Part shown: positions 1,258 through 20,322 of the stretch, piece by piece
Layout of the letters: every line of letters begins with the position of its first letter
Position numbering within the stretch: the first letter of the stretch is position 1
Assembly: GCF_000485595.1 (NCBI RefSeq)
Contig: NW_014577595.1
Location: 235,593-255,914, forward strand
From: Priapulus caudatus
Taxonomy: Eukaryota; Priapulida; Priapulimorpha; Priapulimorphida; Priapulidae
Reading direction: 5' to 3'
DNA length: 20,322 bases
The notes under the pieces: model-generated
Told to the model about the DNA's origin: nothing
The model's input: the letters and a program-made list of their open reading frames with translations, nothing else
The model's database searches: none
Position numbers and translations under genes: made by a program

Positions 1258-1620
1258 CTAATGGAAACGCCTCCGCTTTCCCTTCTTCCCCTTCTTCCCG
1301 GACGACGACTTTCCCCCCGCAGCCTTCTTCTTCTTCTTCGCCACGAATCCCTCCGCCTCCTCGCCGACCTCCCCCGAGAGCGCGCGCAGGTCCCCGAATC
1401 GCGTCAGCTGGTCGAGATTCGACATGAGCGGCATGTTGCGGCGATCGTCGCCGCCTCCGCCGCGCCGCGGCTCCTGCAGCCGCATGAGGTGCTCCTCCTC
1501 ATACTCGCGCCGCCGCCGCCGCTCCCGCTCCTCCCGAACCTTCGCGACCGACTCCTCGCGGATCTCCTCCGGCCCGTCGTCGTACTCGCGCCGCAGCTCC
1601 TCGACGGCGGCGCCCCCTAG
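1258..1620 (-). CDS. NGDN: neuroguidin, C-terminal coding part (copy 1, readable frame)
   Basis: This encodes the last 120 residues of neuroguidin, a Sas10/Utp3/C1D-family protein that acts in nucleolar small-subunit ribosome assembly and is reported to bind eIF4E. The frame is open from the L-G-G-A-A-V-E-E-L segment (1620) to TAG at 1258-1260. In order it shows VEELRREYDDGPEEI, a highly charged R/E helix, NMPLMSNLDQLTRFGDL (the conserved C-terminal block of animal NGDN), and a nucleolar-type basic tail with KKKKK and GKKGKKGKRRRFH. The frame matches the family from the RAL block to the end without interruption, unlike the adjoining N-terminal part. The order agrees with animal NGDN of about 315 residues. 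The join to the upstream part near 1621-1660 is disrupted: an in-frame TGA lies at about 1643-1645 on the minus strand. Copy 2 has no equivalent of this segment. Confidence 0.88.
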   Translation of the reverse strand, partial: LGGAAVEELRREYDDGPEEIREESVAKVREERERRRRREYEEEHLMRLQEPRRGGGGDDRRNMPLMSNLDQLTRFGDLRALSGEVGEEAEGFVAKKKKKAAGGKSSSGKKGKKGKRRRFH

Positions 1621-2274
1621 CGCGCGGCCGGCGGGCTGCGCGGCTCACAGCCGCTGCCCTGCCGCTCAAGCGCCGACTCGTCGCCGTCAAGTGCGCCGCC
1701 AGCGAGCCTCGGCGGCGCGGTACTTCCGCTGCGTGCGGCCTCGCCGCTTCGCCGCACCGCTCCAGACCCCCCGTCTTCCTCCTCCTCTCCTCCTCCTCCT
1801 CCTCCTCCGCATCGTCGAGTCCGCCCGCGAGAGTTGTCGCAGGTTGGGTTCGGAATCGGAGCCGGTCGTCGGCGCGGCGTCCGCGCGGCGGTGGCGGCTT
1901 GTTCTTCACGAGGCTTGGTCGATCTGGTAGCTTCAGCTTCTGGTCGAACGGCCGCATCTTCTCGAGGCAGCGTGCGGCAGCTCGACGACTGGCCGACGCC
2001 TGTCGCAGGCGCCCTCAATAATCAAGCTCGCCGCGCGGACTTCGCGCGATGACGTAGGCCGAGGTTCGTCAGGTAAGCCGAGGAGCAAGCTGGTAACTTG
2101 GACCTCTAGGAATCCGACGCCCGCGTGGCCCGTCCACGAGCTTCGCCGCTTTCGACGCGCTGCGACACCAGCAGCCCTCAGAGGGAGGTGACGGCGTCGG
2201 CCTCAGCCCGGGATGCGCTGGAGGCAGCGCCGCGAATCGCGCGCGGAGTCATTCAATCGTCGCACGCCCGCCAT
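1621..2274 (-). pseudogene. NGDN: neuroguidin, N-terminal coding part with many frameshifts (copy 1)
   Basis: This aligns with the intact neuroguidin exon at 12119-12691 from start codon (2272-2274) to the E-R-Q boundary near 1657. It is about 618 nt long against 573 in copy 2, so it carries some 45 surplus bases, nearly all scattered single-base insertions. No frame stays open along it. Recognisable pieces fall into different frames: the L-Q-R-I-P-G start, a D-Q-K-L-K segment near 1930 and the acidic D-D-A-E run near 1810. The neighbouring C-terminal part reads cleanly, so the breaks look like uncorrected sequencing errors rather than natural decay. A true pseudogene is the alternative. Confidence 0.8.
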
Positions 2275-2538
2275 CGTCTTCGCGTCGTTGTCGTCGAGAT
2301 CGAGAAGTTGTGTGCCAAAAGTTGTTTGTTGTCTGAGCCAACTTGTTGCAACAGAAGCAAAAAGTTGTTTGCGGGCGAGTTCAAGGTTGCAGCGGGTGAA
2401 CATTTTGCATTGTTATCGTGCGCACGTGAAACTCGCGCGGCCTTACGCTAACAAGATCGGGCATCCCAATGTCGCACGATTGAATTGGCAACTGGCTGCT
2501 TGATGAGAAACATCCAGCGGCTGACGGCGTACGTACGT
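2275..2538 (-). other. URM1-NGDN intergenic segment (copy 1)
   Basis: This 264-bp spacer between the URM1 stop (2539-2541) and the NGDN start (2274) is homologous to 12692-12942. It should contain the URM1 3' end and the NGDN 5' UTR or promoter. I see no TATA box. The short open frames crossing it are not conserved in frame between the two copies. Confidence 0.5.
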
Positions 2539-2606
2539 CTATCCAACGTCGCAGAGTTGAGATACACAAGCGTGTGCCTATCTTGAATTTCGTAAATCTT
2601 TCCACC
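2539..2606 (-). pseudogene. URM1: URM1 exon 5, copy 1 (damaged, no di-glycine end)
   Basis: This corresponds to 12943-13011 in copy 2. It starts G-G-K-I-Y-E-I-Q, close to the intact G-G-K-D-Y-E-I-Q, then diverges through compensating indels. The VVFISTLHGG end is lost. It is 68 nt long, one less than the intact exon. Confidence 0.8.
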
Positions 2607-3956
2607 CATGTGTAACATAGAACAGTTAAGACAGTATAAGTGAGCATCAGCCCCATTTATTGTAACAATGCAAAAACATCTTTGGATGTGACATAGTAAT
2701 TAAAGTGTGTAGTACTTACTAAATTTAAAAGCTGAGGAAAACAAGGAACACGCTAAAACAAGTGGCGCAGTGCAACAGGGCTCATCTGGTGTCTGGTTGT
2801 TCTGCTGATAAAATCATTGTGGCATGAGCAAGACGTCTTATACATAAGTCTATCTCTTATTCCTTGTTTGACTTTCGTAGCCAATGGAAGCAAAATATAT
2901 CAGCTACCTTTTGCACCCACCCCTAATGCTTCTATGCCATGGCAAGATACATTGTGGCATTGCACGGTTGGCAGCGCAAACAATTATGATTAGAAGTGTG
3001 GCAGCCATGGGCTGCCCCGTGTTTTTTTGCCTATCCACACGAGCCATTCACTGATTCAGGCCTTTCAGGGTGCTATAGACATCGACTGCTTTTAGAAAAT
3101 AATTATGACTTTAAGGAGCGTAAACCTTGTTCAAGCATACATTTGCCTTTTTTTGGCAATTAAACATGTCAACTGTAAAACTCACATTCACAGGTCAGGG
3201 TATGGGCTCTAATTAATAGCAAAAGCAGTGTCAGTCCTTTGTTAACAGTCAACAATCAATGTTTCCCTCTCTCTTGAGGGTCAAACAGGTTAATCTCGAC
3301 ACTTTACTCTTCGCATGTCAGCCGGAAAGTACATTTCACGTCCTTTCGTCAATAAAGCCATAAAAATGGGTAGGTCACCGCTGAAACAAAAAAGTTTTCC
3401 AATTGGCTCCGTCAGCAAACATGTCCTTCAGAAATCTGCTAAAATCATGCCCTCTGCGCCCATTGACCTTTGACAGACTGTGACTCCAATTTCGGACAGT
3501 GATGGCTTCTTCCTTACCATGACTATATCACCGACTATCCACGAAGCCTAAAAGGTCGAGCCAGTTTAGATTTTGTGCCGCAAATTCTGCATTTCCTCCC
3601 TATACCTTAAGTAAGGAGGGAATGTCCCCCCTTCTTTCTTACACGCATCTTGACGCTTTGACCTTTTTGACCGCCCAGCTTCAAACATCCCAACTCGTTT
3701 TGCAAAAAATTACGCCCGCCCCCACTGTCCCCGACTTCGAATCCGTACGTCAAGACCATTTAGATTTGTGCCCAAACTGTTTGACTGGAGCGCACATCAT
3801 GCGATTGCTAACAAAAGCTGCATCTGACTTCGTCAAGATGAGCTAAAAAAATACACGAGCATTATGGACCCTTTTTCATAAATAATTTAATTAATCATAC
3901 ATGATAATATTAGTAAATGTTTGCAACTGATTATAGAATATGCTACTGTTATTAAC
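2607..3956 (-). other. URM1: URM1 intron 4, copy 1
   Basis: This 1.35-kb intron is homologous to 13012-14312. A hairpin lies near 3597-3620, where CCTCCCTATA faces TAAGGAGGG across a CTTAAG centre. Two loosely similar segments, each with a run like TTTAGATTTTGTGCC, lie near 3565 and 3760. An open frame at 3622-3846 is not preserved in copy 2, so I treat it as chance. Confidence 0.6.
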
Positions 3957-20044: not shown

Positions 20045-20066
20045 CTGAATCTAACGTAATCTTCAT
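20045..20066 (-). pseudogene. URM1: URM1 exon 1, copy 2 (one-base deletion)
   Basis: ATGAAGATTACGTTAGA is kept, but one G of the GAG codon is missing and an extra C separates the exon end from the GT donor. It is 22 nt long instead of 23. Confidence 0.8.
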
Positions 20067-20121
20067 TGATTCAGGTAAACGGCGTGTCGCATGCTTCCGT
20101 TTGCTCACTTGTTTTCCGACT

Positions 20122-20141
20122 CACGTGGTATGTCACGTGAC
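20122..20141. promoter_or_regulatory. paired CACGTG E-boxes upstream of URM1 (copy 2)
   Basis: CACGTG at 20122-20127 and the palindrome GTCACGTGAC at 20132-20141 repeat the arrangement at 9855-9873. The spacing differs by one base. Confidence 0.6.
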
Positions 20142-20322
20142 ATCCGTCATGATCAACATTCATCCACACTGAAATCGAACACACTGCACAAATGTCCAAA
20201 TTTGTGGACTGTGCTTAGTATTAATAATATAGTAAGTTGTCTTGAACCTGGCCAGTGTAATCTGAAGGCAAAAGGTAACAGTAACACCAATTAGCTAACA
20301 CAATTTCTCGTGCGTTTTTGCA

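Follow-up and report, generated by a model that had tools for sequence, protein, structure and literature searches.

In the polishing cases that PMC8081667 sets out for the Vertebrate Genomes Project, false duplications attract reads during mapping and the neglected copy is left with frameshifts, as in TLK1 of Anna's hummingbird. Among the traits that PMC9516828 attributes to false duplications are erroneous k-mers, with incorrect gap filling given as one cause, and the copies are described as separated "most often" by a gap and "sometimes" as meeting at an unsupported join. Here we describe a locus in an animal draft genome, that of Priapulus caudatus, in a window (the whole stretch of DNA that was analysed) of 20,322 nucleotides. 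A segment of about 8.4 kb, carrying URM1 exons and the N-terminal part of NGDN, is present there twice in direct orientation, and every coding piece in it is readable in one copy and broken in the other. The breakage is an assembly-quality fault of an already documented kind and not gene decay. We favour, with a probability of about 0.62, a false duplication (of the gap-fill or haplotype kind) with a patchy consensus, in which much of both copies is raw.

The direct repeat and its error profile

The window (scaffold C535:235593-255914) is a single contig within a scaffold of 273,779 bases, in an assembly of 385,217,808 bases and 2,952 scaffolds. It holds no N, hence no N run separates copy 1 from copy 2, and N runs of 26,220 N and 5,516 N flank it on the left and on the right, respectively. 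The start-to-start distance of the two copies, located by a blastn self-match, is 10,460 bases (unit 1658-12117), and copy 2 ends together with the contig. In window coordinates, the features are as follows.

1-1657: left flank of the repeat, with the NGDN C-terminal coding part inside (1258-1626)
1658-10025, plus strand: first copy (copy 1) of the direct repeat, raw over most of its length (blastn self-match, global alignment)
10026-12117, plus strand: stretch that occurs once within the window, with abundant inverted repeats and few gaps
12118-20317, plus strand: copy 2 of the direct repeat, ending at the contig end and the N run
8406-9172 (copy 2: 18690-19447), plus strand: member of dispersed repeat 1, raw in both copies
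13154-14137 (copy 1: 2756-3781), plus strand: member of dispersed repeat 2, copy 2 being clean in its first part and raw in the rest
9689-13613, strandless: good block spanning the repeat junction (segmentation and repeat family; right edge confirmed, left edge weaker)
8076-8084 (copy 2: 18316-18325), strandless: homologous switch point (to the left copy 2 is cleaner, to the right copy 1)
9779-9801, minus strand: URM1 exon 1, clean in copy 1 (open frame, exon comparison)
8123-8193, minus strand: URM1 exon 2, clean in copy 1 (open frame, exon comparison)
18051-18130, minus strand: URM1 exon 3, clean in copy 2 (open frame, exon comparison)
14313-14363, minus strand: URM1 exon 4, clean in copy 2, within a mixed stretch (open frame, exon comparison)
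12943-13011, minus strand: URM1 exon 5, clean in copy 2 (open frame, exon comparison)
12119-12691, minus strand: NGDN N-terminal part, clean in copy 2 (Sas10_Utp3 and neuroguidin matches)

The blastn alignment of copy 1 with copy 2 spans 8764 columns, of which 509 are mismatches, and contains 960 gap bases; a global alignment tuned for insertions and deletions (indels) gave 7552 matches, 124 mismatches and 968 indel events, the split between mismatches and gaps varying with the alignment scoring. Of the events in the global alignment, 552 add bases to copy 1 and 416 add bases to copy 2. Searched against the assembly, the first kilobase of copy 2 returned three matches, namely itself, copy 1 (87%) and one 52-base match elsewhere.

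Indel events outnumber substitutions between the copies 7.8:1 (968:124), and 794 of the 968 involve one base. Single extra bases are identical to their neighbour in 45% and 44% of cases, as compared with about 44% expected for random bases. Measured against the frame-verified part of copy 2 (12118-12691), copy 1 carries 9.4% extra, 1.8% missing and 1.6% changed bases. Uncorrected reads of the PacBio continuous long read (CLR) type are dominated by insertions, with mostly one-base indels that stand well above the substitutions. The error type of the locus fits such uncorrected noisy long-read sequence, the platform being presumably PacBio-CLR-like, and is unlike gene decay; the broken frames are almost certainly sequencing error.

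Two further measures were discarded. Transition bias was considered a possible mark of real divergence; with transitions at 14 of 29 mismatches in 12118-13612 and at 31 of 94 beyond, the signal was unclear. The asymmetry of extra bases alone was rejected as a measure of quality, and since it cannot be polarised between two noisy copies, repeat families were used as truth instead.

Clean and raw sequence along the two copies

Dispersed repeats of the same genome serve as an independent truth for each copy, and in this way unpolished sequence can be told from gene decay without reads. Of 1727 candidates for repeat 1 (8406-9172), 40 were scored, and 38 of these lie outside the window; the majority of six genome copies was taken as reference, each of the six being scored against the other five. 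Over 730 columns 70 indel events separate copy 1 from this reference, and over 729 columns 66 separate copy 2 from it, in comparison with 3 to 6 in the six genome copies, part of the events being common to both window copies and possibly real differences of that repeat copy. Scored against three genome copies, the private inserted/deleted bases amount to 34/3 in copy 1 and 29/6 in copy 2, and the three genome copies themselves have 0/0, 4/0 and 0/5. Both copies are raw at this place. Longer copies of repeat 1, on scaffolds C74 and C636, carry 21 and 14 indel events with 64 and 46 extra bases; the idea that raw patches exist there found no support, the extra bases lying mostly within a few long insertions.

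Repeat 2 (13154-14137) was found at 39 places outside the window among 40 scored of 5102, and its events were counted against the majority of three genome copies on either side of about 13,612. In copy 2 the count rises from 4 indel events before this point to 43 after it (about 486 columns). The counts on the two sides are 40 and 47 in copy 1, and 0 to 3 and 3 in the three references. Copy 2 switches from clean to raw at about 13.6 kb, and beyond the switch both copies are raw. Private indels of copy 2 are absent from alignment columns 0-499 and then amount to 23 indel bases, of which up to about eleven form one insertion whose motif also occurs in copy 1 and which may be real. An open reading frame of more than 72 amino acids was absent from two checked copies of the dispersed repeats (families at 8406-9172 and 13154-14137). 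Short three-way comparisons, made by eye with other parts of scaffold C535 and within the window, showed errors in both copies also near 4.75-4.83/15.09-15.19 kb and 9.24-9.42/19.51-19.69 kb.

Without use of the repeat truth, a three-state model divided the succession of indel types in the alignment into eight segments with a log-likelihood of -646.9, as against -669.6 for the best of 200 shuffles, and the order is non-random. One boundary falls at 13,613, in agreement with the clean-to-raw switch in repeat 2, and closes the good block that spans the repeat junction. The left edge of this block (9689) appears only at the looser of two segmentation settings and is otherwise based on URM1 exon 1. 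Good sequence is also present in the NGDN part up to about 1626. Three arms of the inverted repeats in 10026-12117 have between 0 and 2 gap bases, and the arms at 4838-5507 and 15180-15904 show 19 and 24. Elsewhere the extra-base load is similar in both copies, namely in copy 2 at 13621-15807 (96:94), 16323-17865 (119:126) and 18688-19944 (87:71).

At the homologous switch point (8076/18316) the event ratio changes from 47:13 on the left to 8:39 on the right. Copy 2 17880-18316 and copy 1 8084-8396 are probably cleaner islands that meet at this one homologous point, a pattern that fits accurate data spent on one copy only; copy 2 15822-16306 likewise leans clean (74:12). The swap between exon 3 and exon 2 at this point is the sole true homologous switch between the copies. 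The apparent reciprocity between the NGDN N-terminal part and exon 5 (readable in copy 2) and exon 1 (readable in copy 1) comes from a single good block that straddles the junction.

Several observations stand beside this map. Between segment ends, 5454-6051 of copy 1 and 15822-16306 of copy 2 measure 597 and 484 bases, copy 1 being more than 100 bases longer; the gap arises from 74 and 12 scattered small events, and either one copy is exceptionally bad here or the copies differ genuinely. In the single-occurrence stretch, clustered inverted repeats and short sequences resembling mobile elements lie at 10255-10368, 10410-10472, 10583-11002, 11071-11484 and 11842-12098, the last of which has a further occurrence at C535:264747-264997. 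Eight N runs, of 1 to 53,736 bases each, were counted in the examined part of the scaffold (258,187 bases), and these need not all be assembly gaps. The GC content varies from 0.435 to 0.565 among the blocks of the scaffold and the N runs between them are very unequal; mis-scaffolding is possible. Directly past the N run 3' of the window, a short tandem repetition with a 141-base step and 99% identity occupies C535:261498-261954.

URM1 and NGDN

Both genes are encoded on the minus strand. The exon lengths that a sequence-only reading of the window had given for URM1 (copy 1/copy 2: 23/22, 71/81, 84/80, 51/51 and 68/69) are exact in both copies, and its splice across the copies was reproduced as well: exons 1-2 of copy 1 and exons 3-5 of copy 2 join to 294 nucleotides, i.e. 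97 codons and a stop, with AG ahead of exons 2-5 and GT behind exons 1-4. Residues 3-97 of the joined product match residues 7-101 of PDB 1xo3 (E 4e-37) and its C-terminus is HGG. The full-length match together with the terminal GG motif identifies the predicted product as a URM1 protein. Its relatives number 788 proteins, the top ones belonging to PF09138, with at most 72% identity to the best; the named URM1 relatives among those listed are animal proteins, the best being that of Ptychodera flava (71%).

A six-frame protein search of the assembly with URM1 yielded three matches, one to exon 2 of copy 1 and two to exons 3 and 5 of copy 2, and none outside the window, exons 1 and 4 being too short for reliable detection. 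The probability that exons 2, 3 and 4 would each be clean by chance in at least one copy is about 3e-4, on the assumption of about 5% indels per base per copy (a round figure, to be compared with 35-37 private indels per 625 columns), so that some of these exons do lie in cleaner islands. Exon 4 is clean in copy 2 either through luck or through a small island.

The NGDN N-terminal part of copy 2, with a predicted Sas10_Utp3 domain, matches residues 10-189 of human neuroguidin (E 7e-44). Its length had been read as 618/573 nucleotides; the 573 of copy 2 stands, and the alignment edges give 616 for the broken counterpart in copy 1 (1659-2274). The clean open frame at 1258-1626 matches neuroguidin residues 199-313 (E 3e-11) and represents the NGDN C-terminal part, both parts matching neuroguidin chain 7mq8_NC. 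With the Sas10_Utp3 domain and the neuroguidin C-terminus both present, the predicted gene is assigned to NGDN. In the six-frame protein search of the assembly the C-terminus had its sole match in the window. The NGDN frame is interrupted somewhere from about 1626 to 1658, and in copy 1 it is almost unbroken across 1626-1660, linking the counterparts of human residues 189 and 199. The copies differ in the N-terminal part by nine substitutions, four in third positions, all synonymous, and five in first or second positions, which are too few for deciding between real divergence and error.

Gene prediction at this locus would call URM1 and NGDN duplicated and broken, and could suggest the loss of two conserved genes.

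Origin of the duplication and comparison with known systems

We infer a faulty assembly step, by which one genomic segment would have been placed twice in direct orientation within the contig, much of both copies being left as uncorrected, noisy, insertion-rich long-read sequence; the duplication itself is most likely false. Accurate reads or contigs, presumably assigned by best hit to two raw copies, would have corrected only one copy at each place, i.e. in the near-4 kb block at the junction and in what are probably islands 300-500 bp long. About 800 bp of accurate sequence would have corrected copy 2 left of the switch point and copy 1 right of it, and the NGDN and URM1 exons would be readable in whichever copy received the good patch. 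In favour of a false duplication, the sequence turns raw no more than about 30 bases from the repeat edge at 1658, copy 2 halts at an N run, and the artefact already on record has such an appearance. Erroneous sequence is in excess in the duplicated region, the yardstick being repeat copies elsewhere and not k-mers.

Several observations weigh against a false duplication with best-hit patching. An assembly gap between the copies, one of the signs of false duplications beside half or very low read depth and discordant read pairs, is not found in the window, the N run coming only after copy 2, and the junction 12117/12118 lies inside the best block, as a real junction would. Between the two copies the errors show only a weak anticorrelation (Spearman -0.18, p 0.026 in 50 bp bins; p 0.11 at 100 bp and p 0.22 at 200 bp), and isolated mismatches show no overall transition excess (14 of 32, p 0.14). 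The cleaner islands are verified at exons 3 and 2 only. Copy 2 carries private bases at 13180 and 13601, two positions at which copy 1 shares the base of the three repeat references, and because of these the copies would not stem from one identical template. Haplotype-specific k-mers in both copies would mark the heterotype, as against the homotype, of false duplication. A real and recent tandem duplication of the 10,460-base unit, correctly placed and left unpolished through ambiguous read mapping, with the base errors as artefacts, draws on the same junction and private bases, and on the nearly continuous NGDN frame of copy 1. We regard it as possible though less likely: the far end of copy 2 is hidden by the N run, raw quality begins right at the repeat edge, and a false duplication would yield the same pattern.

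Other explanations fare worse. The sequence-only reading had attributed the locus to uneven polishing of a duplicated contig in four zones (good as far as 1650, poor from there to 8000, good again up to 18130 and poor beyond). In kind this is borne out by the excess of mostly one-base indels, and the six coding pieces and the 8076/18316 switch agree with the layout, but the layout is refuted by the repeat truth at two places. Copy 1 8406-9172 and copy 2 13612-14137, both predicted to be good, carry the 70 and 43 indel events given above, so that the zone said to be good from about 8000 to 18130 fails at both places covered by full-length independent truth, and the four zones are very improbable. 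The reciprocal intactness on which they were built holds in the six coding pieces and also at 13154-13611, but not in general: beyond the exons the two copies are in many places bad at once, as at 8406-9172 and 13612-14137. Genuine decay of both gene copies following an old duplication would account for a frameshift in one copy of each coding piece. It is just as improbable, in line with the sequence-only reading, given the 7.8 indel events per substitution, an equal indel load in non-coding repeats and a clean copy of every coding piece. Hardly more credible is a real tandem duplication, recent or polymorphic, whose 10.46-kb unit, ending in GT and AG inside NGDN, could act as a newly gained intron (12118 joined to 1657). 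On the minus strand at 12117/12118 copy 2 reads CAG and then GTGGGT, a donor-like sequence whose score is equalled at 89 of 214,618 scaffold positions, and the NGDN N-terminal part of copy 1 ends in CAG. However, this was noticed post hoc, the acceptor side lies in GC-rich coding sequence and lacks a pyrimidine tract, splicing across the unit is a prediction from motifs, and copy 1 would give an unbroken NGDN without splicing.

Compared with the intron gains by tandem genomic duplication treated in PMC4974935, the locus shares a duplication within a gene and GT and AG at the unit ends; it differs in the weak acceptor context, in that the duplication is doubtful and in that its splicing is a prediction from sequence motifs. 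With the false duplications characterised in PMC9516828 it has in common an adjacent duplicated segment rich in erroneous bases, whereas here the copies lack an intervening N run and the judgement is made from the sequence alone. The attractor artefact of polishing, in the form given in PMC8081667, arises in a polished assembly, between haplotype sequences or at false duplications, whereas here it would act within one contig, in patches, with long stretches raw in both copies. The principle would be the same in both: one matching sequence draws the accurate reads, and the other is left unpolished, with frameshifts.

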